Assembly (NCBI GenBank): GCA_900618425.1
Contig: UZAN01039879.1
Location: 39,274-103,273, forward strand
Reading direction: 5' to 3'
DNA: 64,000 nucleotides
Source of the DNA: Echinostoma caproni
Taxonomy: Eukaryota; Platyhelminthes; Trematoda; Plagiorchiida; Echinostomatidae
The translations under genes and the position numbers were made by a program. A model generated the notes under the pieces. The model was not told the DNA's origin. It was given only the letters and a program-made list of their open reading frames with translations, and searched no databases. This document shows, one piece after another, positions 12,001-62,700 of the stretch (its first letter is position 1; each line of letters opens with the position of its first letter).

Positions 12001-15000
12001 TCTCAGGGACACTGTAAATAAGCATACATGTGCGAAACGACGATAGCCTAATCGACAAATCCTCACTGCGCTATACAGAATAACGTTGACCGTCGGGCTA
12101 CTCTTGGCTGAGAGCGGTTTCAATTTAGACTTAAGGAAGCTGCTCCCTTTTGTTTGCATAATCGCAGCAAACATCAAAGAATGATATTTTAGAGGTATTA
12201 ACTGTCTATCCTCCCTAACAAACACATTCTGCATGATCAGGAGAGTATGACTTGGGCCAACATCAGTATAAGCCAATCACGCAGCCACATACACACACGG
12301 CTAAACGTACTCAATCAAAAGACTTAACCGTAATTTTTTTAACTTCAGATGAATCCGCCGATTTCAGCTGAGCAATTCGACAACAGTACGTGATTCGGAG
12401 TGCCTTATTGTGTACATCCGGGGACAGAAACTCTTACGCAATAAGCATTTATAGGTTGGTATTACGCTGTCAAGAAACAAAGTAGCCGATCTGAGTTAGG
12501 AAGAGAAATTCGGTGACTGTGTTATACATCTAAGTCCAGGGAACAAATGAGGAGTAAATGAATGATTCAAAGACACTTCGGATTTGTTTCATTTCAAGCC
12601 CAACGCACCAATAATTATGCTGGTGCTACCCAATGCACAGCAAACGCCATCCGACTGTACAAAAGATCCCACACGTATGAGAAATGATACAACGAAGCTG
12701 AGTGACTAAAGAAGAAGCTGTACGTAACAGATCATTATCACTGACAGTGTGAATAGCTTACGACATTAAATTGGAGAGGTACAGTGAGAAAAACCAATTT
12801 TCGCCAGGCAGCAGATGAGTGCATATTCGGTTCTAATATTCAGGTAGAACGGTTCTGATGCCTTTTCATCATCTTTTGAAAGGTTTTTTCTATATGAGAG
12901 ATATATAGGCAAGTCCGTTCGGTTCCGAACAAGTGATGAAATTGAATAGAAACATCAGCGCGATGGCATTTGCTAAGTGGTTTTTTGGGGGTCCAAACTG
13001 AAGTCACTCATGTAATGATTCATCCCAACAATCATGCATGAGAATGATGACCAATTTGTCGATTTACTTTGATATGGTTTGCTTTCATACCCGAACGGCT
13101 GAGGTAAACTGCCACCCGGTTTGTTCATACTCCTCTCAAGCTAAGAAAATAATTGGTCAAGGGCAACACATTCATTGGAAGGGGGGGGGTGATGAATAGT
13201 CAAACCCTGCCTCAACCAAACTCTTATGCTCCGTGAGTAACTCACTCAGAAGTACTTCTGTTTGATCATGGTTGGATCAGTTCATTCTGACTGGGCACAT
13301 ATGATGACAGCCTCGGTTCAATAGGCAAGAAACAACAGTTACTTTGCGCGAAACCCAATGGAATATGATTGTGGGATTCATTGAAAGTTATAATGGATTC
13401 TCTCAAAGCTGGACAGGTACTCAGTGATAGTAAGAATAGTCGATCAAGCTCGGTCAAGAACTGTAAGAGAATTTCTAGAAGCTTAGTACACTCAATGAAC
13501 AGACACATAAAACTGGATCACGTGTACACGCCAATGCAACTCAAGGATCAAATAACGCAATAATAGGTTGCGTCAGGACTCGAGGATTGAATGAAAACCG
13601 CAACGCAGACGGGGGATCAACCTGCCTTGTCCGTTCGCACATGTTCAGCAGCGAACCAAGTTGAAAACGAGCATAAACAGGGAAAAAACAGCCGCTGAAG
13701 AACTGTACATAGGGGGGGGGGTGAAATACCATAACCTAGCAAGCAATGAGGATGTTAACTCGGCTGTTGATGAATCTTTTGTGAACAAATTGTCAAGCTC
13801 TACGAACAGGCGTAAATGGAAATAACCATTTGTTACCGAATATTATAAAAACGCAACAGCGGCGAGAATATAGAGGGATTCGTTCTCTCGCTCTGTTTAT
13901 CTCCTGATTTACTTGGTCAAATTCAATTGCGAGTCTTTAAAATTCCCCTATAATTTTTATAATTTCATTCTGAGGCTTTTCGATGGCAACATTAGTAACA
14001 AATCGGAGGGTAAAGGAGAATGTATCAGACAAAGTAACAGACTCAAAAGTATGCACCAAGATCATGTACATATGCACCACACTTACACAAAAATTCAGTC
14101 AACCAACTCGGTTGACCGTAGAATTCGACCGAGACGCATAAGGTATTTAACAAGACGAGGACTACGACGGCGATGTAAAACTTTTGTGATTTGACTAATC
14201 GCCGAATCACGAATCTGAAACAAATAGAAATGAGTGAAAAACTGAGTACAAGAAACTGATTCGGACAAGGAAGTTTGAAACAAATAAAAGTGATCATAAG
14301 TTGAACAAAACGAGATTTTCACTCAAACGCTGATAGGCACACAGGGGAACTGTTCAACGGAGTTTCATAGAACCACTGAAATGTTTCGATAAGCATCTCA
14401 TGCTTCTCCAATATTACCGGGACTGTTCTGTTCTCATGCGAGAGTGACAGTGTCCTGCAATTACCGGTGAAGGCTCTAAATGGGCAGTATGAAAAATGCG
14501 TAACCTGAAATCCGCTAGACTGTGAGATAAATCAATTCAACCAAACCAAAGCAGACTACCTCAACAGTCTATAATGGAACTACGATACCTTTCATCCTGA
14601 AATTCCAGTGCGGCATTTATCGAAGTGAATATCGAAACTTTGGTCCGCCTTCCCTTATGTGGGTACTATCATGAGTAGCAATAATTCAGCCCTGTCACAC
14701 TCAATCGATAGCGGATACACAACTGCCTCGGCAACCCCATTCAAGGTTTTGGTGGAAGAGCGTTTAAGCCGAACTAAATAATTAAGCAAGAGTTTTTTCG
14801 CACAGAGGACACGATAACCCCCGGTATCATGAAACCTGAATTATGCAAGTGCTAAAACTTGCTGCACACTTTGGTGTAACCGTGGTAACGAGAAACGGTG
14901 GAACATTTCTTTCTCAACTCGTTTGACTCGAAAGACCATTCACGGATTCATCCTTATTTGGTTTCCCAAAATTACCCCATTTCAAAGTGTCCCAGGTGTG

Positions 15001-27000: not shown

Positions 27001-30000
27001 ATCTTCCTTTGTAAAATTCCTGATTGCTCCGTTCCTATATAGTGAAAGCTATCGACCTCGGTAGAGAGATAAATCAATTTATGTGTGAGTTGTGTGTTCA
27101 CTGTTCCTCTACGGCTGTTCGTAAAATACGAAAAAAAACCAAAACCATAAATCAGTGTTAGCTCGTCAATGATGCCTGTCATTACACCCATTTCCATCTC
27201 ACACTCGAGTGGAAAGCTGAGGGCCGGGTAGGGGGGAGTTATAAAAGTACTTGACCTTGACGGTTCGCTTTTCTCACCGTGAACGTTTTGTCGTGGAATG
27301 AGTGCACTTCGCATTCCTCAAACTGTTATACCCGGAATGCATTTACGATCTCACCGAGGTCCATCACTCGTAATAATTTACTCACTTTGTGAGCAAAAAA
27401 TGGAATATTTTCTAGTGCATGTAGTTCCGTTCGTTTTGATTTTTGCACGCCTCTGCCGACGGGGAGTTATTTTCAACTGCGAGCAGATTTTATCAAAGTA
27501 GTATCCATCACCTCGATGCTTTCTGAAGTAGTGTGATCTATCAACAGCGGAATTTGGAGGTATACCTTGCACTGTGAAATCCCATTGAACGTAGCGCTGA
27601 ACAATCACCCTGTGTTCATTCGGAAGTACGNCTGCAAGGGCTTGTCCATTACACGCATATACACGGGAGCAAACGAGAACAGTAGCCACGTTGAAGGGTA
27701 GAATATTGATCAGCATTTAGTATAGTATAGTCGATATACAAAATTCTCCATCTATCGTCAGTTTTGAGTGAGTGAAAGTGAGCAGGAAAATGGGACAAAT
27801 TGGCTTCTTGAATACTTCTTCACTTACTTATATATATATATATACTTATTTCGGACTGTGATGTAATCATCTAACTTTTATTTCCTTAGTGTGATGCTTT
27901 GCCACAGTTTTCTAGACTGTCCGTTACACGTCAATCGGAAACCTTTGCGGTTACAATGATATCCAATTATTCCAACTATTGCAAAATGAGAAAAGAAATA
28001 TTTCAGGAGAGGGGCAGAGCATTGAGGTTTCACCTTTTATCTTTTACAAAAGCATCATAAACTAAACAGTCCGATAAACCTATCGGAGAAAATCCCTTGA
28101 ACCGATGAAGTGAGTAAACAAATCGATGGGCCACGGTTGAGCCTAGCCCAGAGAAAAAAGATCGCTTAACCGGATCAGGCACAAAAGAGGTGTGACCGAA
28201 AATCCATAATAACGGGCCGGATGTGGACGAGTGAACACCACGTTAGATACGCTCTACTGAAATGTTCAACCAGTACCTGGGTTCCGTTTTGAACCTAATT
28301 AACGTTTTTCCAGTGGTCTTGAATACGAGAGGTGGAAAGATGATTACCTTGGAAGCACAAGAGACCAGGTGCATGGTGGGAAACCAAACCAGAGTAGATG
28401 AATACACAATGAAACGGAAGGTATTGGGATTTAAAGGGGACTGATGCCTTATGAAATTACCGTTAGGCTGTTGGGCAAAGTCGATCCAAAGACAGAAATA
28501 AAAATTATCAAGTGACAACTAGTCCCGCAAAATTTGTGAAAAAGTCATCAGTTTTCCTGGGATTCCAATACATCCATGAACCACGACGACTCCTTTGTAC
28601 GCGGTACGCTGTATCAGCAAAGTCAAGGGATAAAAATAAATGCCCTGTCTGATAGTTCCACGTTTAATCACAAGTTTTATTTGTGAAGTTAGTCAAAATA
28701 AACGGATTTTGGGCATTGCAGTTCACCTGTTGAATGCTTAGTAGAACCTTTGTCACACAACGAAATAAGAAGCTTTGTGCTTGGGTTTGTATCCTATCGA
28801 GGTTCGCGAAAAGTTTGCAACAGTGAATGGGAATAATATCGGTCATGTTTTGTAAACTATCCATATTCGTGAGTAATATCGGAGAAGCTTGATCGGACGC
28901 AGGTATTGGACTGTCCATTCGGTGTGGTAAATGCACAGAAAGGTGAAAGAAAAACGCGATTTTGTTGATCTTGAACTTATGAAGAAAACTACGACGAAAA
29001 TTGTCTGAGGTTGGTGAGACTTAAATTACTACCGCGAAACCGATGACAGTGGAGATCATACTACATGGCATGTGAGGTGACACAACTTTCAAGACTTATA
29101 CAGTTGTCAAATCTTCAAAGAAAGTCGAAATACATAAATCACAATGATGGTTAGAGGGATGATCAGTTTGAAAGGTGTTTGAAACTTAAAATAAAGAAGA
29201 AAGGACGTGATACAGTGTGTAAACTGTTGGGGAGTCGAGTTTGGTCAGTTGTATTATTCATTGTGCGTTTTTCACTCTGAGAGTACGAAAAGAGCGCAAA
29301 ATAGAATGTTTTTAGACCTTTATTGAGTGATGGGATCCAGACAAACTGGGTCAGTGAAGAAGGGTGGATTAATTGCTGAACCGAGATGAAAACTTGTAAC
29401 TTATTTGCAACAAGCTCTTCCCATGAAGAATTTGAAAAGAGAACCCTGTATAGCAACACTGCACGGTTGATTTCCCGGACGATTTGGTCGCATCTCAACT
29501 GGCAGCTACTGCAGACAAATACAATGTTTATCTAATGTTTGGGATACCCGTCTCCAACCCCGGGTAAATAATCCCCATCTTTGTATTCCAGCTCAAACGT
29601 AATCTATCAATTCCATTGTGGGCCCGGAGAAATTTACATAGGCAGAACCAAAAGGTGCTAAAATACATTCCGAATTGGGTTCAACTCGAGGTTGCCATGT
29701 TAATTTCCACACAGCTCGTAAAGGCTGTGTTCACAAAACACCAAACTCATCGATTGTCAAGCGCTTGCTGATGACGCAAAACCTCGTTGATCGCGAGGAC
29801 GCATTTCGAGTAATGTTTGCTAATTATAACGTCAGAATGCTTATGATCACTGAGGCGATTGCAATCAACCGATGCAACCCGATTCTGTGTCAACAAAAGG
29901 GACTTGTTCATTACTTTGACTTTACCTTCATAACGCTCCCCCCATTTAAACTTGTTTACTTCGTAATCCATTCCAAAGCCCTATATAAATATTGTATTTG

Positions 30001-33000
30001 TCTGCAGTAGGCGCCAGTTGAGATACAGCGAAATCTTCCAGGACATAAATCGTGCAATACTGCCTTCTCTTTTCAAGTTCAGCGTATTTGTCTTTTTCAT
30101 TGAAGAGTGGAATAAACAAATGTTTTCAGAACTGTTACAGCGGCTAATGAACTCGTGGAAACCTCATATAGGTGGTTGAATAAATTTCTTCATTGTTTTA
30201 AATTTTTCGTAATTAGGCTCATGTGCTTATAAATTTTGTGGGACTAAAATATAAGTCCACGAAAAGAAAGAAGAGCAGTTCTTTCAATTGATCATGAAAA
30301 TTCTCAGAGTGACCACTAAAAAACTGTAATGGAAGGATTATTTATTGAATAGAATAGCTGATATGGCAAAACAGTTATGGATATCTATGGGAAAAGTATA
30401 ACGTTTCTGTGAGTTACGGAAATCCCAACGACCATTTATTTAGCAATGGCCTTTGAAATACTCCTCAGTGATGAGTAACAGACGTCGATGCTGATTTTGC
30501 AGTGTTTACCTTTTCAAATTCAATAGAAACCCCCGCCATTTCACTTGGGTCCTTTGTAACTTAAAGTAAATCCCACTAATGGCATTCTACTGGGGAATAG
30601 ACAGAGCGAATATTGCTTCACTGGTCACACGTCACCGATTGAACCGGGTCTATCAAACCTCTGCCCGGTCAGAACGAAATGATTTATACATAGACAAACA
30701 AAAATACGTTTTAGTGAGTTACCGAGAATGAAAGGTTCGATAGGCTGGGTTAACCTGATCATCGCCTCCATCCACCCCCGCCACACTCGGGAACAATATA
30801 ACCTTGACCATTCATCCAATGAGCCTCAGACGAGAATGAACGAACCCAGCTCTGATTGACCTCGGGCGGTCGGGTAAGGAAGCGATTCACGTGGAGATGG
30901 ATCGATAACTCGGTTATCATGCTCAGGCGTGAAAGTGGCCATAATTCATTGGGTTTACTCTAGTTCACTCTAGCAGTAAATTTCTTCGAGTCAAAGTTTC
31001 CCCCGAATAACACTGTTTCTTTTGAACCAAATCCAATTCCCTACATTTTCTGGCACACTTGACAATATACCGCATCAGGCACTTACAAATATACAAGGTG
31101 ATCATGGTACAGATGTCTGATTGGCCGATTAGAGCTCAGTTAGTAACGATGGCAGGATGAGCAAACAGAGCAAACGAATATGACAAGGCTAATGATAGTT
31201 GTTGGTGGGTCGTGAGAACGTATAGGTCAAATGGACAATGTTCGAGAGGTGAGCAGATTTTACGTACATTTGTAGTGTGCAACACATTGGAAATACGACC
31301 AGGCGACAATCAAAACGTATTGCTGAGCCCTGTCCTGCGGTCCTCTACAAAGGAACGGTTAGATGTATTCGCAGCTCGGTTCTCGGTCATCTCGTCAATA
31401 GCGGGGCATTTTGTGAACAAATTGAATGCATTCAAAGTATTCACATTATACCCCGGAGATATTCCAAATGGGATAGGAAGGTGGCTTTTAACCACGGCCG
31501 AGGCGATCGCAATTCGCATTTTCAATCCAGAATTATGCAAGCAAAGAAACTGGTCCAGACACTGTTGTTGCCCTGGCCTGGACAGCGGATTCATTGTGCA
31601 TTAAACAAAGCATCAGCCCTCGCACCCCCTCACCAACCCCCTTTCCTCATCGTCATCGTCAACCTCAATCTTAAGAACTTATTATTTTGTTTTTGTCTCT
31701 AATGTCCCTTTCTGATTATATCACTTACTATGCATGACCTATAGTTTCTGCCGTATATTACGTAACTTCATCCCGCTCTCTCGTCTTAGCTCACAATCTT
31801 CATTTACTCTGCTCATTTCTCGAACGTTGTCCATTTGACCTGTAAGTTCTCACTACCTACCAACAACTATCATTAGCCTTGTCATATTCGTTTGCTCTGT
31901 TTGCTCACCCTGCCATCGTTACTAACTGAGCTCTAATCGGCCAATCAGACATCTGTACTATGATCACCCTTTATATGTGAATAACTGATGCGATAAATCG
32001 GAAAGAAATTTTTTCGCGAATAACGTTTTCTACGTCGTTTATGGGACTATTTTACGGTTTGACAATATACATAAAAATAGAGTAGAATTTCATCTGAAGA
32101 ACAAGATCAAATTTTAACTGAATCACTAAAAAAAATTGCATTTTTTCTCTACACTTACCGAATTGATTGTTGCATTATGTCAAAAAAGGCAGTAGCAACA
32201 ACGTGCAACCTACGGCTTTACTTATCGGTTCTTATTCTTATTCATCCTCATCCTCGTCACACGTCTTCATCTATGCTGTTCTTACATTTCAGCGGGCGAA
32301 ACACGGGGTTATCAGAAAACCCTAAAGATCCTTCAAATGGTGATAGGTACCGGGTATCGCATGGGGTGTTTAGTTGAAATCGGTGCAGTGTTCTACTCAC
32401 AGCTTCCCTAATGTTGATTCGTGACTTTCGCCTGCTTGAGGAAAAATTGCCTCCACGGAGGAATTCTAGAAGAATCCCGAAGATATGGTAAATAGGGTGA
32501 TAAATTATGCAACAAGGATGAGAATCTATACAATGAAGTTTAATGACAAAAGGAGAAGCTTTAGATGACATGTTGAGGCTATTGGCATTGTGGCAAAAGG
32601 CAATAGCCGATCCATAACTAGCAGAAAAAATGATAGCTAGTGAATTCTTTCAGAATTTGACCTTGTTATTCAGGTTAACTAGTGTTTATTCTTTCACTGT
32701 AACATCGTAATGTATATTGCTAATTGGGCCTTTCGAAGATCGTCAAGGAGTAGTTGAGCGTTTGTTGTGCAAGCATTTGAAGTGAACTCGAAACTAAAAC
32801 GTACGTGTCATGAGTCTGTCACCTTTTGGATATAGCCAGACAACTGGCGGATCGGGACAGGAAAGGTAAGACGTATTGGCAAAGCCTTATTAGTCTGTGC
32901 TTGTGTCAATGTGTGTCAAGAACGGGAGCAAAAGTCAGTCAGGGGATTATCAATCTATCTGGTAGGACGAGAAACTGATTGTTGCCGTGGGACGCGATCT

Positions 33001-36000
33001 CAATTGGGGGGTTGGTTGAGATATCGCTTGGTTATCTTATGACTGTTTGACTTTATGTTAAAACTCCATCTCAATGTTACAGAATTCCTACAAACAAGTC
33101 CATTTCCTTCCATATCCATCCATGATTGCCTTGCTGACTTTTGCACTTATTTCTAGCATGTCCACAAACTCTACCACAAATAATCACATTAGTTCATTAA
33201 ATCAGTTTCCGGTAATCGTGAAAAACTAGATACCTGATATTAAGCAGATCTAAATCACCAATTACCATTCACCTGAAATTAAGAATATGTTACATCCTAG
33301 TTACAATAAAAGGAGTCCCATTAGATAGCTTTCCGATTGGAAAGGTAGAAAATAACGTCTGCTTGATCAAAATATTGAACAATCATTCAATGCAATCATT
33401 TTCTAGGATTGAGTAAAGTGTACCCACACGTTTTCCAAACTTTGAGGATAATAGAAAATGGTTGAAACTATTTCTAGTGATAATTTTCACTGAACCCCTC
33501 ATTTAGGTTATTGCTCCCATTTCTTGCTCCGTCAGGAATGTCCTTGGGTTGCAAAGCATTGATTGCGCACCGATAAATTTGCCCAACGTCATTAACCCGA
33601 CGTCTAATGTCACCAGAAAATTTTCGCACCTACACTTCAACCCACCTCAAATGCATCCTATCCCCACACAAACAGTAGTGTAGTTCTCGTCAAATAGGGT
33701 TATCTGCTTAGACAAACACCGGCACTAATAGTGGATATCTGATAAAAAGTGGCCTAGCTAACTAATCTACACAGTTTATACGAGACCGTTCACCTGTTCC
33801 TGTTAGTGAGGTGCTTGAATTTGTTACGGCATAGGTACTTTTGTCTGGCCCCTTGCAAAAGCGTCCATACACGGACACAGGCACAACAATCAATGAGGGG
33901 ACGAGGTTGAATGCATTATCGAGAACACGAGAAAGGGGCAATGCTGGAGTGGCGAGAGCTGCTATGGGTGGCGTCCATGATTGGCCAGACAGTGGAGAAC
34001 GCGAGAACGAGGGATCGTGTGCGCGCATGTGTGTGTGTGTGTGTGCGTGCGATGCAGAGCGCGACAATGAGACAATGAGGAAGAGTGAATTAGGTGAACC
34101 ACAAACACCTGGGAGCATAAATCCTTCAAATGTTTCAGGATCAGAAAAAAGGCACATGTGAACTAGTGCGCATTATTCACGTGTGAGTGGACGAGCAACC
34201 GACGATGACCATCAACAAACCTCGATCACGGGGCATAATATACCATGCCACCCGTATGGATGCGAGTGTATGATCCGAAGTGGAACCAAGTTCGGTAGAA
34301 AAAGATTCAATTATCGATTAGGGTGCAGTAGGTTATTTCACCCTTCTGAGGAAATGACACTCACGGGATATACCGGCAGCTACGAAGACGGGTAAGGATT
34401 ACAAATGGTTCGGTTCTACAGAACAGGAAATGTTTATCAAAGTGCTTATGCAAAATTTTGAGCATCAGTTATTTTTGTTAGAATTGTTAGCCAAAAGAGT
34501 TGGTTTTAATCTTGGATGAATACATGGTTTAGCCCTTTGGCAACTAACCTATAGCTCCGGATATGTTCTCTATACCACATTGGCTGCAACTTGTTTACAC
34601 CACGTTGTGTGACTGAAACGTGATTCCTCACAACTTTAATTTGTCCTACTGCCTCACGTTGTGTAGGAAAAATGTGTACCGTGAGATGTGGTATCGTGTC
34701 CAAGATGAAGTCAACACACGATTCGATTTCTCAGTTGGTTTGAGCTCAACATTTACGTGATAAAACGGGATCGAATTAGGGGGAAATTCACCGAACACAG
34801 ACGGATAGTTTAAATGTAGTTAAAACCATTTGCTTTAGAGCTAAAGTGTAATTGGTCAACAGTGAATATTTGTTTATCCCCTTGCAATATCCCGACTGTA
34901 ACCTTGGGGCCGAAATTTGAAACATTCTCGCATGTCCCACGGTCAATGTTCAATACTTTGAGAAAATGGCTACTTAATTTCAAATTGTATTTAATTGAGC
35001 CCAATCACCCATTTATTTAATTGAGTTTCTAATAACTATGTCGTTTGATTGCTTGTTTTTGTGGAGGCTGATAACGTCTACTTGATCGATGTTTCAGTGC
35101 CGTTGAGACTCATCAGATGTGCACAATTTGTTTCTTTACCGGAAATATAAAAGAAAACCGTTGGGTTTGGACACGCTACTCCAGAGTACTTATAGATTTT
35201 CAGTACATGGATACAATTACCGAACGTGCTGACAATAAGCTGTGCAAAGTATGAGAACAAAACGCTGATATTCGATGAAAAAACGCACCTTTTATAATAC
35301 GAAGTTTCTCTGCAAATGAAGTTTGTTCCTCGGCCAAGATAACCTCCTCTGCAAAGAATAGACACGAATCAGATGTACACGGGATAGGACAATTGATAAC
35401 AGGCATACTGTTGTTTTTCTTGAAAAGGCTAATAACTAGTAAATAGTGTACGGAATTCTAAGACTTTGAAGCTGTACCAAAACACAGTGAATGAAACAAA
35501 GTATACACAAGAATAAAAAAAATCAATAATTAAACATTATTTGTATAATTCTAAAATGGTAGATGTAACTGACTGCGATACATAACAGAAAACTGTTTAA
35601 TATTGAAACCAACTCTGTGTTAGTCTACCATGAGTGGGAACCAATGGGGATCAGTTAAGTCACGATTTTGTGGGACAAATTATTACGAAGGAATTTCGTT
35701 GTGTGAAAGTTCTGTCCAGTGTATGCTGAATGAAACCAAACCTATTTTGATACGAAACCTTAAATTATAAATCTGCGCAAGCTCTCATTCCCATCTGATT
35801 GATGTAATGCAATCAAGTTGAAACAATCATGGAGACCAACTCTATAGTAAAGCACTTTGTTGATATTTGGCCAAAAGTGAACAACACTGAAACAGAGGCT
35901 TATCTATACTGAGATTTGGTTTTAGGTTGCGGGTTCACAAATTTTTCTATGATTGCTACTTGTGTTTAAAGACTTGAGTCTATGTACACGGTTTAAGTTT

Positions 36001-48000: not shown

Positions 48001-51000
48001 TTAAAACGGATCAGGCTACCAAAAGGTGCAAACTAACATGACCAGAACAAGAGATTTATCCAATAACTTGATAATATTCGACGCTTATATAAGCAAGTTA
48101 TGATTGTACTAAAACATAGACATCAGCCCTGTTGCAAACTTTACAAACGTATTCTCAGTGTTAACCTATTAAGGTACGTTTCTATTTGGGTAAAAGTTAT
48201 TGATTAGCCAACCTTTCGATTTTAACCTCATTATGTGTCCTTGGTTTTTCATAGATGACAACTCATGTCGGTTTTGGCTAGATCGATACGTGTTTTGAGT
48301 CAGTGAAGCAGTTTGGCAGTTCCGCTGATACTATTTCACTAGTTAATGTCTTACCAGTTTATCTGACATTTAAAAATTCCACTGTATTGATGCAGTATTT
48401 GCTTATCTGGTGAGGCGGATGTTTGATCAGTTGAGTCAATAGACAGAATGTCATAAACGGAATTTCTTTAATGAAATGAGTTAGACCACCTATTCAAAAC
48501 TATTTTCAGTTCAGTTCTGCAATTTTATGAGTGTGAATATTTTGATCATAGACTAAATCTTCGCAACTTAAAACGTAATGATTGATTCCGTAACCCAAAT
48601 AAGCCACTTTCCGATCTGTCAGTTTGATTTACTAACCGTTTTCAGGTTTATCATGACCAAAACATTTAGTGTTTGTTTGTTGTGGTGATCGTACAACCGC
48701 GTTTCAAGGTCATCTGCTAATTGTGGTTCGGTGCTCGCCAACCTCATTCGGTTAAATTGAAAAATAGATAAACGATACCTTGAGTTAATCGTGCTTTTCA
48801 ACATTTCGTCCGTTGGTAATTTTCGTCCATTTCTGTCTCAGCACTTTATTTCGTTCACATTCATTTGACAAAGCGAAAGAAACGTGTGGTGATCTTATTT
48901 GAAGATGATTGAATTGATCAGACCAGAATAAATTTATCCTTCACTACATGACGTCAGACTTTGGAAAAGCCATAAATATGAGTCAGCAAAAGCTGTATCA
49001 ACGTGATCTCACGATTTGGATTGCGTTTTTGTTACACAATGTTTAGCCGAAGTGGATTCAGATCAAAGTGTGAACGCTGAATACATTCAATGCGTACATA
49101 CCCACTTAGTACACCGAGAACCAGATTGATTAGAAGGAAGGCGCCGATCACAATGAGTGGAATGAAGTATATCACGTTGACACGCGGACCATAGGCACGG
49201 TTTGTCTACACAATGAGACAGGGAGGTGAACAAAGGAGAAAACAGCAGGGATTTAAATAACACAGCAATATATATCCCATATGGTTCGAAAGAAAGACGA
49301 AAAATAAATTTTAAACAACTTAATAAATGATGAAACGGATTACATGCAGCGAAATTATGGTACAAGGAGAATTCGGCTGTTGTTTGCATTATCGAGGACA
49401 ACTCACTTATACGAGAGACCATAATGGGTGGTCTTATGTGAGTCAGAACCATTGACTACTCCAGCATTTTTTCACTTGTACCTGATTTTTGTTGGCACTG
49501 TGAATCGAATTCTCAGAATTACAAACAGCGCGCTCCTGTAAACTGACTGACGTATTCTTTCTGGCCAGACCAAAAGCTTTTTCAATGTGCTATTTTGATC
49601 ATGAAATGCAGTATTCACGTAATTTTAGATATCGAAATAGGTGTTCTCATGTCGAAAATAAACAATGCTGGTTGCGATATTCATAAATGAGTAGCTACTT
49701 AGCCACTTTGTATCAAAATATGGAACCTGAGCGTTTTGAACCCCCGAAGTTAGTATGTTTCAAGCCCTCGCTCTTCAGTTCCTGAACAAATAAGCGGCTT
49801 CTTAGTTGGCAATTTTTGTCACAATCATTGTCTTTTGTCACATTAATAGACTGATCTTTTGGGATGATAAAAGCCAAGTCTGCTTTCATCTAACTGAGCA
49901 AATTTTTCATAGTAACACGTACTGCTTTATTGCTATCAGTAGTGGTGGAATTGGCATTGGCGGTCCGTTCGGTTCGGTTCACCATATGTCATAGGCTTCC
50001 ACCAGGGCGCCAATGCCCGAGATTCTACTACTGTTGTCACCCACAAAGTCTATTGCTGGTGAATGTCTGACGTTAAGCTCAATAATATATAAAGTATATT
50101 GATAATAATTAATATATTAGGGCTAATCCAAGCTTGCTACTCTAAAATTGATTGAGCCATTCGCACAAGGTGATTATCGTCGGCCGTGTATCTCAGGCGT
50201 AAGGATTTGAAGTCCTAACCCGGAGGTTCACTGTTCGAGTCGTGACAAGAGTACGCACTGCCGCCGAGTCCCCAATAGGACGAAACAGCCGTCCATTGCT
50301 CTTTGTCGATTACCACAAACATTTCCATTGCATATATTTGTGTATTTTATGATCTGTTTTCCACCTAACTGAATCTGTTTGGTGATTTCATCAGATTTCC
50401 GTGTTGGAGTGCTACTTTCCACTGATGAAAATGTGGATGGTATTGTGATATTGTGTCTTATTCCACGGAAAAGCGGAACACAATTCATAATTTATTTCAC
50501 AATTAGAGTAAATTCATTTGCTTCTTTTCCCATTAACAGTCAAGGACGTAGTTCAACTTACCATATAAAGCACATCAGTCCAACCTTCCAGTGTTATACA
50601 TTGAAATACAGTGAGCATGGCATAGCCGATATTGTCGAAACTAGTGATACCGTAATTGGGACCCTCCCAATATCCTTTACACGTGTAGTTGGGAGGGCAA
50701 GAGAAGGCACCAACCGGTCGTGTACTGGAATCTTTGGGCTGACAAGGGATCAGACCGGGCGCGTCAGGAATGGACGAAGGCAGTTCTGTGGGGTTGTCTG
50801 TGTGAGCCAGACATCAAGAGATATAAGCCAAAGAAGTGAATAAAAACTGCTGATGGAATTTTGCATGAAAACTATAAACGAAACACGCATGTTAGTCAGT
50901 GTGAGTGAAAAAATAAGTTGATGATCCCAAATCATAAAATGTTTACAAGTTATCATACCTATTACCTGGAATTGTTTGGTTTCGTTCGCTTGCTCTTTCA

Positions 51001-55774: not shown

Positions 55775-58700
55775 CTGTTAAAGATAAAGTATCAGGAATA
55801 AAAGTTATTCAGCTTGCTAGCGTACATTAACACATTTTGGATTATGCCTAAAACCAGAGAAAGTGAAAGAGTGTGGAAGTAGTAGTGACAAGGAGAAAAA
55901 AATGCCATGATTAAGACAAGTCTACAAATACAAACAAATTCAAAATCGTTTCATATGCACCAATTATTCCTCAGTAGGGGCATGTTTTCCTTTTAATTTT
56001 CAGTAAGACCCCATCATGCACTGTACAATTGATTGCTGTCAGGCCACGTTTTGTACAAGCAACCACAATGGTAGGGGATTTCCATGCGTTGTTGACGTAC
56101 AGCACAATGTTAAACACCAATGCGGGATGTCAAATGACTAGAGTACTGAGTCAATAAACCGCATTGCGCAGGTTCGAATTCCATAAAGTTCTCAGAGGAC
56201 GTTATATGAACGTGGCATATCACTCAGTTGCCAAGTTCTTCTACTCCACAAAACCACATAAATTTAATTTGTCGTGAAAGTCCTCCGATTCCTGGCCGTA
56301 AAAGCATAGACTCGTTAGGCTGTTAATCATTTAAATTAGAGGATTTATCCGTGTTGAGAGCACGTCTGCCAGAAAGAATGACCGAGTGGGTGGATGAGGG
56401 TGATCTGACAAAGATGCCGAAACAAACGAAAGGTGAAACGCAGGAACCCACACTGACTACTGCTGAATTGTGGGTGTTCGAAGCCGAGCACAAGCTTGTC
56501 AATACTCACGCGAGCTTGTCAACGAGCATGCAANCGAGTCGTTGGGTCTGAAATTCCCTTTTTCCACTCTCGTACGTCGCCATTTACACAGACACACAGA
56601 GCGATACACAGAGAGAGAGAAAGTGGGAGAGAATTACTCCCAATCGATGCGAACAACAATGTTGCTACAGGCAGTTCCGGAATCGATGAGGGATAAACGG
56701 TGGTTTAGGAGCACGTTGGCAATTGTTTTGAACAGATACCCCCGGAAGTTTGTATAGATGTGTGTGTGTGAATGAGCAGGTACGGTGTGACCTGCAGTCA
56801 TGTCATCCGCATACGAAGAGTTCAGTACAATTTACGCTAAAAATAAATCTGCGGTTGTATCGGTGTAAAATAATGCATTGATATATCTAACAAAAATGGG
56901 CAGATCGAAAAATTTGTTTACTTGTTTACATTTCAGGATCCCTTAACTTCACTGGAACGCACTGCAACGCATCGGAACTCAGAAAACGTTTAGCGATTTA
57001 ATTATTAAATTGCTTTTGGTATTTCAGGTGTGAACCAATTCAATTTTCCAACATGAATGGTGATGGAATTAAGTTTCCTCTGTAAGATGGAGTGTTCTAG
57101 TTTCGTTATAACTGAATTCCACATTTTCGATCAATTCTCAGTCGGTAACTTCCCCTCTCCTCTATGAATTGAATTTCACAGTTATCTATCACTACACATG
57201 AAGCAAAACACTTTTCCTTTATCAGATAAATGTTCCTCCATGAGCTACGATGATAAAAAATATGGGTAAAAGACCGAATCCTTGAGGATAAATCGATAGC
57301 AGTGGTCTGATAGAAGTAGAGTAACTTCGACGGATCACAAACACATAAAATATCACCTCAGGTGATAAAAAAATTCATGAACACATTTATCTTATTGGCG
57401 AATCTTTAATATAAATAATCGAGTTGTCAGGACTCTTTATAAGAAAGAAAATGTTGTTCAACATGTGTGACAGAATGAGCACATCAAATATGCTTGAATT
57501 CTGTTCACTGTCGAATAGGAATAATCGACCATAACAGTAAACGGAATAGTGTGAAGTCAATCAGTTCTGCTGAAATGGTTTGTGAACACATATGCAACGA
57601 TTTAAATCCGAAATGTGCACTTGTGTAGCAATAAATAGTTTGGGAAGACACAGGTAAGAATGGCTTCTGAAGCTGATAACTACATCACCTCGTTACTCCC
57701 AAGATAAAACGGGTGCTTCATTTATATCCAAATGAACTAGGACTTTATTTTCAGAGTGGTACAGAAACTTCATATTTCTGATTCAATCTTAGCCGCGTAG
57801 GAACGGATTTTTGTGTACTCGCTCTGTGACCGGATCTTTTCCTCAACACACATCCACAGTTTGTTCACAATTCACCCATATGATTAATTTTTCCCCAAAC
57901 CCAAGTATCCCATGGGAAATCTATAAACTGTTACGTTTGGCATGGAAATTGACATTGACTGAGTATCCCAGCCCAGAATTTTTCTGTTTGTAAAAATACA
58001 GTAGAAGAATTTCCTTCGTTCTGTTAATCATGGATCACCAGAAACTGGAACTGTTGTAGAATCATTGTCCATTGCGTTTTCTACCAAGCCCCAAAGAAAA
58101 AGCCCAATGAAAACGAGAATCTCAAATCCGTTTATTTGTGTGATTGGGTTACTAGATTGTGGGTATGCGCGATCTGAAACCGTTAACCTTCAGATGATTT
58201 TTTTAATACACAAAAAGCACCAGTTTTCACAGTCTATCTTTTTAATGTCAGTCGGCCGTGTACTCTTTCAGTGGACATTTTGTTTTCTCATTACCATTTA
58301 TATCTCATCTCTGTATCCATGTTTTCTCTACACGGTTCACGGAACGTTTTAATAACTGTAATTTTAACAACTATAGTGCAGCCACGTCGATGGTAATCAA
58401 CCGGAATCCAGATGAAGCGCGTTCAATAAAATTATTTTGGTAACTGAAGCATTTTGTTTATCTCCGAAAACATCTAGGTATATTCTATCAAATTCAAGTC
58501 TTCCGTGAGTACATAGACGCTTTGACGCACTCTGGAAACTGATCGGTGATGTTATGAGCAGTTTAATCTTATCTCGCTTGGTTAGCTTACAGCTTAGTTC
58601 ATACAACTGATGATTCCTCACAAAGTTGAAAGGATTTTTGTTATTTAGACGGTTAATGCTTATTCGGCTTTTCACAGGCACTAAAGACTGTTGATAATCC

Positions 58701-58804
58701 TGGGAGATCGTTAATTTCCTACCAGTTGATTACATTTAAATGTGATGGAGTGAAAACCACACCCATGATCATCAAAAGTGTCTAGTCCCTGCGAAAAACC
58801 AAAT

Positions 58805-59012
58805 AGGCTCATCCAAACATGCAGCTTCTAAATTGATGGAGTTATTCGCACACGGTGATCACCATCTTCCGTGTAGCTCAGGAGTAAGGGTTTGAAGTCC
58901 TAAACCGCGGTTCGAGTCATGGCAGGGACACAAAAAGTACGCACTGCTGTAGAGTCCCAAACAGAACGAAACAGCTATCCATTACTCTTTTTCGGTTATC
59001 ACAAATATTTCC
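58805..59012 (+). mobile_element. tRNA-like SINE/retrozyme-type repeat, copy 2
   Basis: The best-preserved promoter part of the three copies. Box A-like GTGTAGCTCAGGAGTAAG lies near 58871-58888. An anticodon-arm-like hairpin (GTTT/AAAC) follows. Box B GGTTCGAGTCA lies at 58909-58919, with a canonical seven-base T-loop TTCGAGT. The hammerhead remnant comes next. The start is shared with the copy at 50121 (GGCT.ATCCAA). Confidence 0.8.
58938..58988 (+). ncRNA. Decayed type I hammerhead ribozyme, copy 2
   Basis: Stem I 5' strand GCACTG, catalytic box CTGTAGA (consensus CTGATGA), stem-loop II GTCCCAAACAGAAC with one mismatch, GAAAC intact, then AGCTATC and CATTAC. It has lost the catalytic box and much of stem I, so it is very probably inactive. 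Confidence 0.72.
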
Positions 59013-59589
59013 ATCGCAGTGCTTTTTGTTGTTGTTTGTGGGGCATCGTTTGATAAAACTTTGCTGCACTCCGCACATGAATTTAGTTTGTCAACCAAAC
59101 GGAATTTTCATTACTCCCAACTTCAAAGACGCAAATTAACGCTGGTTACGCTATTTTCCAGCAAATGTTTTCGGGGACAAAACGTATGCTGTTGATGTGT
59201 TGATGTAGCTCTATCAGCACCAACCACTCAAACAAAGCACAATAAAATGCGACCCATCAGAGATATCTGTATTCCCAGAACGCAAAACCCCTTGAAAATT
59301 GTGTTATAGTTAATAGGAACTCGGGACCAGTTAATTTAAATCATCCGTTGTTTTTTAACAATTAAAACTCAACACGTGGATCCTAATGTTACTTAGGATG
59401 ACAGTTTCATATCCCAACATGAATGTCAACAGTTCGAATCCAAGCAAGAACAATACTATTCATATAATCGACAAGACAACTATTTGGTACTCTTTATCGA
59501 TCAATGTATGCAAAATCGCCTCGTAGATAAATACACAGAATCGTGTTTAAAAGGTAATTGCTTACCAAATGCGACGAAAATCTTTTTGC

Positions 59590-59773
59590 TGAACAACAAA
59601 GCGCACTGAACAGCTTTTCCGTCCTGTTTGGGACTCATCAGGAGTGCGTACTTTTTGGGTCCCCGTCAGGACCATAGAACGGCAAATCTTCGGGTTGGGA
59701 CGTCAAATCCTAACTCTGAGCTACACGGTCGACAGTCATCACCTCGTGTGAATGACCCCATCAATTTAGAAGG
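59590..59773 (-). mobile_element. tRNA-like SINE/retrozyme-type repeat, copy 3 (opposite strand)
   Basis: Read on the minus strand this follows copy 2 from CTTCTAAATTGATGG through box A (GTGTAGCTCAGAGTTAG) to the hammerhead. Box B is badly decayed (GCCGTTCTATGG). The copy faces copy 2 about 580 bp away, so the pair forms a long inverted repeat. Confidence 0.78.
59601..59651 (-). ncRNA. Hammerhead ribozyme remnant with intact CTGATGA, copy 3
   Basis: Minus-strand order: GCACTC, CTGATGA (intact), GTCCCAAACAGGAC (stem-loop II with a perfect four-pair stem), GGAAAA (consensus CGAAAC), GCTGTT, then CAGTGC, which pairs with the stem I 5' strand except at the pair next to the core. Of the three copies this is nearest the consensus, but the altered GAAAC box should still impair cleavage. 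Confidence 0.78.
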
Positions 59774-62700
59774 TAAATATTTCAATTAACCCGTTTGGTG
59801 CCTGTAAAAAACGGAATGGACTAATCTAAACATTCATCGTCTAAATTCTCTTTTTTTCTACTGACCGAGCCGGGGATTCTGTTTCAAAACGGTTCACCAC
59901 CAGCCGAGATGAAAGTTTCCGGAAGCAGGGAAGTTGTCACCCATGCGCAAACAAATAACCGAATTCCATAAACAGGAGTGAAGGTGAATTCAGTCCAAAC
60001 CGAGTTGCAAGAAGCAGTCCACAACACGTTATAAATCCATGACAAAATGTTTAGTGAAAACATACAGAGAAACATCTTAGTTTCTATTAGGGATTCTGCA
60101 CTCAGAAGTAATCCTCGAAAAAATGCATGAAAGCCCCGTTCTAATATTCTACAGATTAGTAAATTTAGGGAATCATTTACGCTATTTATGGTTACAAGAT
60201 GAATCTTATTGTTACGTTCTGACTAAACACAAGGAAGAAGCGTGTTTTATCTAACAACAAGAGTACTCTCAAAAGACATCTCGGATCTTGATAAATGTTT
60301 GTTTATTGATTAGTTTGAACAAGATCTTTCAAGGATTTCGAGTCATCATATATTTATATTCTTCGCTGTCTTTACAAATCCAAATATTTCACTACTTTTT
60401 AAACTTTTGCTCCATTTTCTCTATTCCAACATTAGATGCTTGAAGTAAGGAGAAATATTTAGCTTTGCATATATTTGCTTATCAAAATCAAAGAGTGGTG
60501 GATACAAACACGACAAAAATGCCTCAAAATTATGAAAAGGATCTCGTCAAGTACTTTATAAAAGATGTACTCCAAGCTATAGAAAACGTGGTCAGTCAAT
60601 AACAATTTTGTGTAGGCCAAACCGCACTGGTAAGACCTTGTGGGCTCAATGAGGTCAAACCATAATCATATAATCAAAATGGGATACTTTTGTATAATAA
60701 ATGTTTCACTTTCATGGTTTTATCCCCTCCCGGTAACAATAGCGGATCCATGAATCGATCGAAACCGCGCATTTCCTATATGCTTGCTCACACACAGGCT
60801 GATTCATTGATTAGCTATTGGTGGATTCAGTGATGCCCACGCCATATGGACCTATCATTCTCGCTCTCAATAATGATTTTCTACGTTCACTCTAAGCCTC
60901 CTGATCCCGCTTTTTATTCTACCAGATCTCATAAAAATAGCCAATAACTTTTATTCTGGGAAAATTCTGAAAAGTGACAATATCGTCCAATTAAAAATGT
61001 TAACCATCTTACGAAAACTGTCTGTAGAACAGACGATTCTGGAAAGGCAAAAGCTTTGCTAATTCCGGATATTTTCTTCTGCACATGATTTAATAATTTC
61101 CCGAGGCTTAGCGTGCTAGGAATTCGGAAATTCTCGGTTATTCTTCAAATGGCGAAGAATGTAGTTTTTTTCTTTCACTAGTAGTGTGAGCTTAGTTACC
61201 GCGTTCTTTGCTAATGGATAATCACTCTTTCCTTTACCAATTTTAAGTCAATATTAAATTTGAATAAAACTAGTAACACAATGTGAGCAGGATTGATTTT
61301 GGCCATCAATTTCACATGTTCTCAATCAGCTGTGTACGCACATTAAATAGGTCGAATTTTATAAGAAGAATACCATATATGGACATTTACATAGAAAAAC
61401 ATGGGTTCAGGCAAAAAGTACTGGGTTGTTGAATCATTAAAACAGTCATTTGGGTATCGGTGCACGAGAAGGAGGATGGGATAATGACTAAAAAGATTCA
61501 GAAAAAGGGAATGTTACCCTAGAAACAGTTACGTAATAGAAAACGATTACTGGAAAAATATTTAATTACTGAAAAAAACAGTGTGGTTGACATTTTTGAG
61601 GTTAATAGAAAATTCGCACGGCTTTCAGATTCACGTACCGAAAGTGGAGAAATTAAATTAAATTATCCAAACTGAGGGATAGTTAAAATGTAGGGTGAAA
61701 TTTTTGGCCGTAGGTTACAGGAAGACATTTGAATGACCCAGTTGCTATCACATTTCCTTTAGGAACCAGTGTTTTCCAGAAAAACCTTCAGTTGATTTTT
61801 AGTATTCACTTAGGCTAATGATATCTTCCGTTAACTCCATCTGAGGAATATGAACGTTTTAACGTTCACTCGGTGAATTGTAGTTGTTCCGAGGTCTCGC
61901 GAACATCACTAGGGTTTTGGAATACGTTCAGTGGATTGAATCACTCTGCTAACCGGTTCGCATGGCTTCCGTAGAAGAGATGAAGAAATAAGGTGATAAA
62001 ATCGAACATTACATATAGAATAACTGATCGTTGATGTGCTGGTTTTTCGCTTCATTACTTTCATTATTTAACCCCGTTCAGTTTCAGATTAACCGTCCAC
62101 ATTTACTTATCTTGTGACTACAGAGATTCTCGAATGACCTGCCATTTTTGCACTAACTCCCGCGATTTCACGAGACCACTTTTGCCTCGCATGAGTACAC
62201 GTTCTCCCCTAATGTGTAATCCTTTCATTACAGTTTCTGTTTTATTTGGTCTAAACACACTAGATGGACAGTTTAAGTGGTATATATTGGCTTAACATAA
62301 ACCCATCGATGGGACAGTATAACTAAATTAGACGAGCTGAGATTAGCCTTGATGAAGCGCAGAATGCTCTCGAAGGAAAGCTAACGCCTTACATAATCCT
62401 GCACTACTCTATTAACCTACATGTTAAAAAATGTGGACGTTCAATCTAGCCTAGGGACCTTGCGGTCGACGCAGAAAATCTATTTCTCGGTGGCCTGGGT
62501 CATTTGACTCCGTTTGTTTGAACAGTAACCTCTCTGTCCTCATTTGCAACCCATCTGATACCACCTATCGTCCCCATTTGTGCAGTTCACCCGAATTGCA
62601 CAAGCTGGTAGCATTCGCATTCCAAAACCTGATTATTTCATTTGTATATACATTCTTTCCAGTACTCGACTTCAAGCTTTTACGTTTTCTTCAAGTGCAG

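Follow-up and report, generated by a model that had tools for sequence, protein, structure and literature searches.

The window analysed here, a stretch of 64,000 nucleotides of Echinostoma caproni DNA, holds three copies of one repeat, which have about 200-230 bp in common at 72-76% identity and each of which carries a type I hammerhead ribozyme with a decayed core. The original prediction had placed hammerheads at these three spots, and this was borne out: copies 1 and 2 narrowly pass the gathering score of the Rfam model RF00163 (Hammerhead_1), which is 34 bits, while copy 3 falls below it (2/3 window copies passing), and a core pattern allowing up to three mismatches matches three times in the window, always at the hammerhead spots, against a mean of 0.01 in 100 shuffles. 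The features are listed below, T1 and T2 being the two sites, defined later, at which arms of the repeat end.

35057..35173, minus strand: probable relative of the repeat, far older, in which a hammerhead-like core can be made out (nhmmer 16.6 bits, E 1.1e-4)
50120..50333, plus strand: copy 1, a single arm ending at T1, unit positions 82-303 (BLAST arms)
50255..50299, plus strand: type I hammerhead of copy 1, core decayed (RF00163 34.7 bits, E 6.6e-5)
58633..58642, plus strand: possible left target-site duplication of copy 2, GATTTTTGTT (by eye)
58643..59020, arms on both strands: copy 2, one two-armed head-to-head insertion (BLAST arms, ends extended by eye)
58643..58749, minus strand: inverted arm of copy 2, ending at T2; unit ~294-320 plus 1-110, with a small deletion
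58747..59020, plus strand: main arm of copy 2, ending at T1; unit ~24-305
58874..58884, plus strand: A-box-like element TAGCTCAGGAG of copy 2, tRNA-like head (pattern search)
58909..58918, plus strand: B-box-like element GGTTCGAGTC of copy 2 (pattern search)
58941..58985, plus strand: type I hammerhead of copy 2, core decayed (RF00163 34.1 bits, E 1e-4)
59021..59030, plus strand: possible right target-site duplication of copy 2, GCTTTTTGTT
59567..59846, arms on both strands: copy 3, a second head-to-head two-armed insertion (BLAST arms and end reading)
59567..59799, minus strand: arm of copy 3 ending at T1, carrying the hammerhead
59603..59647, minus strand: type I hammerhead of copy 3, core decayed (RF00163 29.4 bits, E 0.0036, whole-window scan)
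59796..59846, plus strand: inverted arm of copy 3 ending at T2 (...CGTCTAAAT)

Copies 2 and 3 belong to larger, two-armed insertions. BLAST delimits the arms of copy 2 at 58662-58698 and 58701-58749 (minus) and 58747-59018 (plus), and its outer ends were set by eye, with ATTTAGACGG at 58643 and CCATCGCAGT reaching 59020; the possible duplication flanking it, also spotted by eye, is 9/10 identical and has an automatic score of merely 5.0. The arms of copy 3 (BLAST 59799-59570, minus, and 59796-59847, plus) have their ends put at 59567 and 59846, with no clear target-site duplication (automatic score 2.5), and no inverted partner arm was found for copy 1. The older relative at 35057..35173 scores 16.6 bits against a best of 7.0 bits among 40 shuffled windows, and has no RF00163 match.

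As had been proposed, each window ribozyme has suffered changes to its core or cleavage triplet, the positions differing in part between copies, and in none of the three are core, stem II and triplet all intact. The consensus, described as that of a textbook hammerhead, is indeed of type I, but at two core positions the three copies show three different bases and so provide no majority. The tRNA-like character ascribed to the family likewise holds in part: A and B boxes are present, but no tRNA is called in the window copies (ARAGORN, 0 genes; Rfam tRNA model RF00005, no match), and a reading of them as tRNA genes was dropped. The single A-box/B-box pair in the window, that of copy 2, compares with a mean of 0.27 over 30 resampled windows and is weak evidence alone.

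Other inverted pairs lie in the window. A 193-bp inverted repeat (31065-31257 and 31808-31998, 90% identical, 550 bp apart) is perhaps another fold-back or two-armed insertion; a second, of ~107 bp, lies at 29428-29534 and 29982-30080 (77% identical), and a diverged inverted pair of a dispersed repeat at 13014-13325 and 30635-30950 (64% identical). Runs of N mark assembly gaps at ~23.5-24.0 kb and ~42.1-43.0 kb, the whole window having 1278 N.

The hammerhead repeat in the E. caproni genome

A search of the source genome (12,689 contigs, 426,516,399 bases) with the Rfam model gave 66,429 first-look candidates; 74 of them were scored, and 74/74 lay above the cut-off. The same search was positive in 0/14 control genomes. 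The exact pattern GCACTG-CTGANGA-GTCC-N6-GGAC-GAAAC-AGC, which leaves out the cleavage triplet, occurs in 294 genomic copies (159 + 135), the reversed pattern in none, and an exact hammerhead pattern was found in 0 viral contigs. All of the top 20 Rfam loci have an intact core and match the profile of the window family (20/20 in each case), and five of these 20 contain CUGACGAGUCCCAAAUAGGACGAAAC, which is the same as the Rfam consensus line; stem III of RF00163 is a short helix without a loop. Intact genomic copies read CUGACGA at the catalytic box, less often CUGAUGA. Across 120 instances, core, stem II and triplet were intact together in 22/52 of the similarity-selected, 51/65 of the Rfam-selected and 0/3 of the window ribozymes. 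The stem I pair GCACTG/CAGTGC is the commonest (39/81 readable instances), and one instance has changed on both sides with pairing kept (GCATTG/CAATGC). On this sequence evidence the hammerheads of the repeat are confirmed as real, and the genome-wide copies uphold the catalytic boxes and stem I pairing of the original prediction; because both persist intact across the genome, an active ancestor of the window copies, as had been suggested, is very likely.

Alignments that run beyond the ribozyme show that the repeat unit continues into itself after 320 bp (subfamily A) or 321 bp (subfamily B). On this unit the A box lies at 150, the B box at 193 and the ribozyme start at 225, with the cut after 263; the consensus of 22 aligned members includes A and B boxes GTAGCTCA and GCGGTTCGAGTCC, several members being without one of them. 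By these features the repeat is a non-coding SINE of ~320 nt, Sm-alpha-like or retrozyme-like, with a type I hammerhead. It falls within the 170-400 nt expected of a retrozyme unit and has the internal A and B boxes of an SM-alpha-type SINE, although a recognisable tRNA (tRNA-Gln in S. mansoni) was not found in the window copies. It is too short to be an autonomous Penelope-like element (PLE), as 320 nt cannot hold both RVT_1 (205 positions) and GIY-YIG (78 positions).

Two-armed insertions and their ends

Beyond anything in the earlier prediction, most sampled copies are head-to-head, two-armed insertions, whose ends resemble that of a Penelope-like element. We collected 90 loci and removed four that repeated a place already present (L029, which coincides with the window, and L045, L052 and L053, which coincide with L028, L026 and L019), leaving 86 distinct loci plus the window; L051, L055 and L061 are distinct young copies and were counted. 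Arms within 40 bp of one another were grouped into one cluster, and, the loci having been chosen by similarity, the proportions are those of the sample and not genome-wide rates. Sixty-two of the 95 clusters are head-to-head, 32 have a single orientation and one (L059) is complex, with two successive head-to-head pairs; the 32, window copy 1 included, are counter-evidence to a two-armed rule. A head-to-head composite is present in 28/36 similarity-selected loci and 32/50 Rfam-selected loci, as well as in the window.

The 3' ends of the arms fall at two sites: T1 (arm end within unit 285-321 or 1-8; CATCGCATTTAAAT or CATCGCACTAAAAT) and T2 (arm end within 78-120; ...CTAAAT). The outer ends of a composite were one T1 and one T2 in 55/62 cases, never T1 with T1 or T2 with T2, and were untyped in 7/62. 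We conclude that same-end pairs were not missed through typing or through loss of palindromes, since synthetic composites (20 per end combination, same-end pairs included) were typed correctly in 80/80 cases and long overlaps are tolerated, the arms overlapping by at least 100 nt in 23/62 composites. In predicted folds of both subfamilies, T1 and T2 lie within or border hairpin loops. Read inward, many outer ends spell ATTTA, resembling tiny inverted repeats, and no poly-A or simple-repeat tail was visible among 33 T1 and 34 T2 ends.

A target-site duplication score of at least 8 was reached by 29/62 composites, against 1/244 mismatched flank pairs, with a duplication length of 11-13 bp in 24 of these 29; because the duplicated sequences differ between loci, the composites are separate insertions. 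The inner junctions overlap by 2-4 nt in 28/62 composites, as in microhomology joining. The junction coordinates of the two arms lie within 30 nt of each other in 17/62 composites, random re-pairing giving a mean of 16.0, so that they are unrelated, and in 30/62 the shorter arm has at least 20 unit positions that are missing from the longer.

The arms also carry information on their template. The ribozyme cut site is crossed by 55/57 T1 arms and 22/60 T2 arms, and 0/60 T2 and 2/57 T1 arms start within 261-280, the 20-nt bin containing the cut. The templates were therefore mostly uncut, or religated, at the ribozyme site, and a linear monomer cleaved by the hammerhead is disfavoured as template by the same counts (55/57 T1 arms across the cut, 0/60 T2 arms starting in its bin). 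Head-to-tail copying beyond one unit, as expected of a retrozyme, was found: 15/117 typed arms exceed one unit (320 nt), so that at least some templates were circular or longer than a unit, and five runs, each with two complete hammerheads, might in principle set a unit free. The longest run in one direction in the sample is 546 nt, or 1.7 units, and no long tandem arrays were met there.

A Penelope-like element with a comparable end

A search of the genome for GIY-YIG domains gave five places. One of them, L106, has both an RVT_1 (E 4e-13) and a GIY-YIG domain and is thus a Penelope-like element; L104 and L107 hold related GIY-YIG fragments. Among 42 protein matches of a PLE fragment, the 12th was a protein of Clonorchis sinensis, with 40% identity over half of the fragment. 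An inverted repeat of the L106 tail stands at the opposite end of its insertion, and a search with this tail (465 candidates, 40 of them scored) returned 45 matches, only five having a head-to-head pair within the tail searched. We read eight PLE places, namely these five, chosen because they are paired, and three other good matches. In L109-L112 one arm ends at a site P1 (tail 219-226) and the other at P2 (281-284), and in L113 the arms end at tail 222 and 248; the second arm of L116 leaves the stretch, and L114 and L115 have one arm each. Duplications score 7.5-11.8 in 4/6 PLE composites (L106, L109, L111 and L112), against a maximum of 6.4 in 30 mismatched pairs, and none was found in the other two tested (L110 and L113). 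P1 lies in a hairpin loop in the predicted fold.

We compared the last 48 nt before P1 with the ends of the repeat, anchored at the end and with the last 6 nt fixed in the shuffles. Equally good matches arose in 0 of 3000 shuffles for T1 of subfamily A, 4 for T1 of subfamily B, 1 for T2 of B and 64 for T2 of A. When the P1 tail was slid along unit A, its best end, 309, was T1; on unit B positions 308 and 310 did best, with 110 (T2) among the top five. GGCTAATCCAAACATTC, 17 nt long, is identical between the PLE and T2 of subfamily B. P2 showed no resemblance to T1 or T2 in the end-anchored comparison. For the end of the L104 lineage, 928, 361, 76 and 16 of 2000 shuffles were as good, the T1 match (928 and 361) being poor. 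Head-to-head arms, duplications and PLE-like ends, as expected of a repeat moved by a PLE, are thus all found. The ends resemble one another less in the case of T2 of subfamily A and in that of the L104 lineage, and the resemblance was measured against PLE tails only (the L106 and L104 lineages).

Some observations on ribozymes and passengers at the PLE loci may be recorded here. No Rfam hammerhead was found up to E 1 in L104, L106, L107 or L108, and five partial Rfam matches at first taken for PLE ribozymes turned out to be the same SINE. By eye, a hammerhead-like stretch, GGCCTTCCAAGAGGGTCGAAACGTCG and variants, lies upstream of P1 (L106:2120-2150, and in L109-L112), which we presume to be akin to the minimal hammerheads of PLEs. 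In one alignment it is matched to unit ~1-45 of the repeat (part of which lies in window 58747-58770), which may be a second, decayed module of ribozyme plus start site. After the PLE, at L106:2462-2738, stands a pair of a second, different tRNA-like SINE, head-to-head and forming a palindrome 83% identical (RF00005 46.1 bits at 2576-2495, minus, and 48.8 bits at 2624-2705, plus); the same machinery may carry it as a further passenger.

Mobilisation of the repeat and its relatives

We propose, with a probability of about three in four, that this ribozyme SINE is moved by Penelope machinery that primes on both strands of the target, probably from a circular RNA. Where a transcript holds hammerheads in tandem, these would cut it into single units, which would then be ligated to form circles. 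The PLE protein, presumably acting in trans, would then recognise two hairpins on the repeat RNA, T1, ending ...UUUAAAU or CUAAAAU some 46 nt past the ribozyme cut, and T2, which ends ...CUAAAU and follows T1 on the unit at a distance of about 120 nt. Both hairpins resemble P1, the PLE's own end. Both target strands would be cut, ~12 bp apart as the duplications suggest, one DNA 3' end priming at T1 and the other at T2, and a head-to-head junction of the two cDNAs, frequently through microhomology of 2-4 nt, would leave a two-armed insertion flanked by a duplication. Reverse transcription for more than one round of the unit could restore loci with two hammerheads.

It is also conceivable, though we find it doubtful, that two-site, both-strand insertion by a PLE uses linear multimers, with no circle needed and the hammerhead incidental. 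Insertion by a PLE in vitro was reported from unprocessed RNA, with hammerhead mutants without effect on insertion (PMC11167929, in the portion available); the arms of the repeat cross an uncut ribozyme site; and the PLE itself, presumably copied from linear mRNA, obeys a similar two-site rule, so that the T1/T2 rule alone is no proof of a circle. We nevertheless favour a circular template on the sampled sequences, because these loci hold at most 1.7 units in one direction (546 nt in the longest run) and cannot yield long multimers, and linear copying merely shortens runs where a circle lengthens them. The intact core of 294 exact copies also speaks against an incidental hammerhead, although recent descent may explain it.

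That the repeat is an ordinary SINE of Sm-alpha type, mobilised by a LINE (for example RTE or CR1), with its inverted arms made by occasional twin priming as in L1, seems improbable to us. The tRNA-like boxes, small size and short duplications would suit any SINE, and in S. haematobium 2/16 hammerhead-like small-RNA clusters overlap RTE-BovB annotation, according to the accessible part of PMC5993326. Twin priming should, however, leave a variable second priming point, and the other fixed site was used in 55/55 fully typed composites; 62/95 clusters are inverted, the 33 T1 and 34 T2 ends have no poly-A or simple-repeat tail, and the end-anchored likeness is to a PLE tail, PLE tails being the only ones compared. 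More improbable still is an origin of the inverted arms from a single nascent strand that primes itself or snaps back. Such an origin is put forward for rotifer PLEs in the available text of PMC3846280, which gives palindromes at inverted junctions and a head-to-head order. The 17/62 composites with junction coordinates within 30 nt might seem to agree with it, but that number equals random re-pairing (mean 16.0), the 30/62 shorter arms holding at least 20 positions that the longer arm lacks are no plain copies, and both outer ends lie on fixed sites; self-priming is disfavoured for the repeat by its uncorrelated junctions and arm content. Finally, we see next to no chance that the repeat is a DNA transposon or a satellite with a fortuitous likeness to hammerheads. 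Many of its outer ends do read ATTTA inward, like tiny inverted repeats, but variable inner junctions, runs that wrap round the unit, duplications mostly of 11-13 bp and 74/74 scored Rfam matches above the cut-off speak against this, and we consider it excluded on these grounds.

The nearest named elements are SM-alpha and Sj-alpha of schistosomes, which are described as SINE-like, tRNA-related, of high copy number and endowed with a type I hammerhead with a very short stem III, the S. mansoni SM-alpha member W36.2_W001 being 335 bp long (available parts of PMC2770079 and PMC8490949). The E. caproni repeat shares with them its SINE-like and tRNA-related nature, hammerhead type and high copy number, and differs in the letters of stems I and III and in a unit of 320/321 bp, this likeness being judged from the ribozyme and from descriptions. 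The portions of those two papers available to us describe no head-to-head build for SM-alpha, whereas the E. caproni repeat is mostly head-to-head in the sample. Metazoan non-LTR retrozymes, as presented in the accessible text of Cervera and de la Pena 2020 (PMC7229834), have type I hammerheads in units of 170-400 nt, runs that extend beyond one unit and target-site duplications which, when present, exceed 4 bp; PLEs were proposed there as their mobiliser on account of shared hammerheads, tandem copies and co-occurrence. The affinity to Sm-alpha and to metazoan retrozymes that had been noted earlier therefore agrees with our results in size, hammerhead type and runs beyond one unit. The retrozymes of that account, however, are direct tandem repeats, from dimers to large multimers, and here, in the sample, direct runs stay below 1.8 units and most copies are inverted pairs. 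A review (PMC7761336, in the part available) holds that retrozyme repeats have no motif that betrays an autonomous partner; on the present sequences, T1 and T2 may be such a motif in a retrozyme-like repeat. The same part of that review describes minimal hammerheads of PLEs without a proper helix III, and cites a title according to which helix-III-poor variants cleave as dimers.

Rotifer PLEs, in the accessible account (PMC3846280), have inverted head-to-head pLTRs, duplications of 8-10 bp in the cases given and an optional one-arm tail, and their inverted build is attributed there to self-priming. The purified anole PLE is reported to cut and extend both strands, starting at two adjacent internal stem-loop sites, its tail being the stretch between the two start sites (available sections of PMC11167929). 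Head-to-head arms, duplications and two internal sites are thus common to PLEs and the repeat, but the repeat is too short to encode reverse transcriptase and endonuclease and appears to borrow the start hairpins, which are spaced ~120 nt apart on its unit as against ~62 nt between P1 and P2 on the local PLE. Taken singly, both the PLE architecture and the ribozyme SINE have been described before; the apparent insertion of a ribozyme SINE in the manner of a PLE, from sites like a PLE end, is new as far as we searched the literature, a search in which we found no report of head-to-head retrozyme insertions or of a start motif shared by retrozymes and PLEs, and which subscription papers mostly lay outside.

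Hammerhead repeats are widespread in animal genomes, and their mobilising enzyme has so far been a guess; a link of such repeats to PLEs had been suspected, without sequence evidence. In the present case three features, namely where the insertions end, their two-armed shape and their duplications, all indicate a PLE of the same genome, and the T1/T2 signature can be searched for in any genome that bears retrozymes. For this ribozyme repeat, our findings argue against self-priming as the source of inversion, and they provide a genomic counterpart to the two-strand extension from two internal RNA sites that a PLE performs in vitro (as given in the available part of PMC11167929). We suggest more broadly, as a conjecture whose odds we take to be even, that metazoan hammerhead retrozymes are parasites of PLEs, their RNA circle bearing two PLE start hairpins that would each prime one strand of the target, and that the same priming may be normal for PLEs themselves, with inverted insertions as its regular product.
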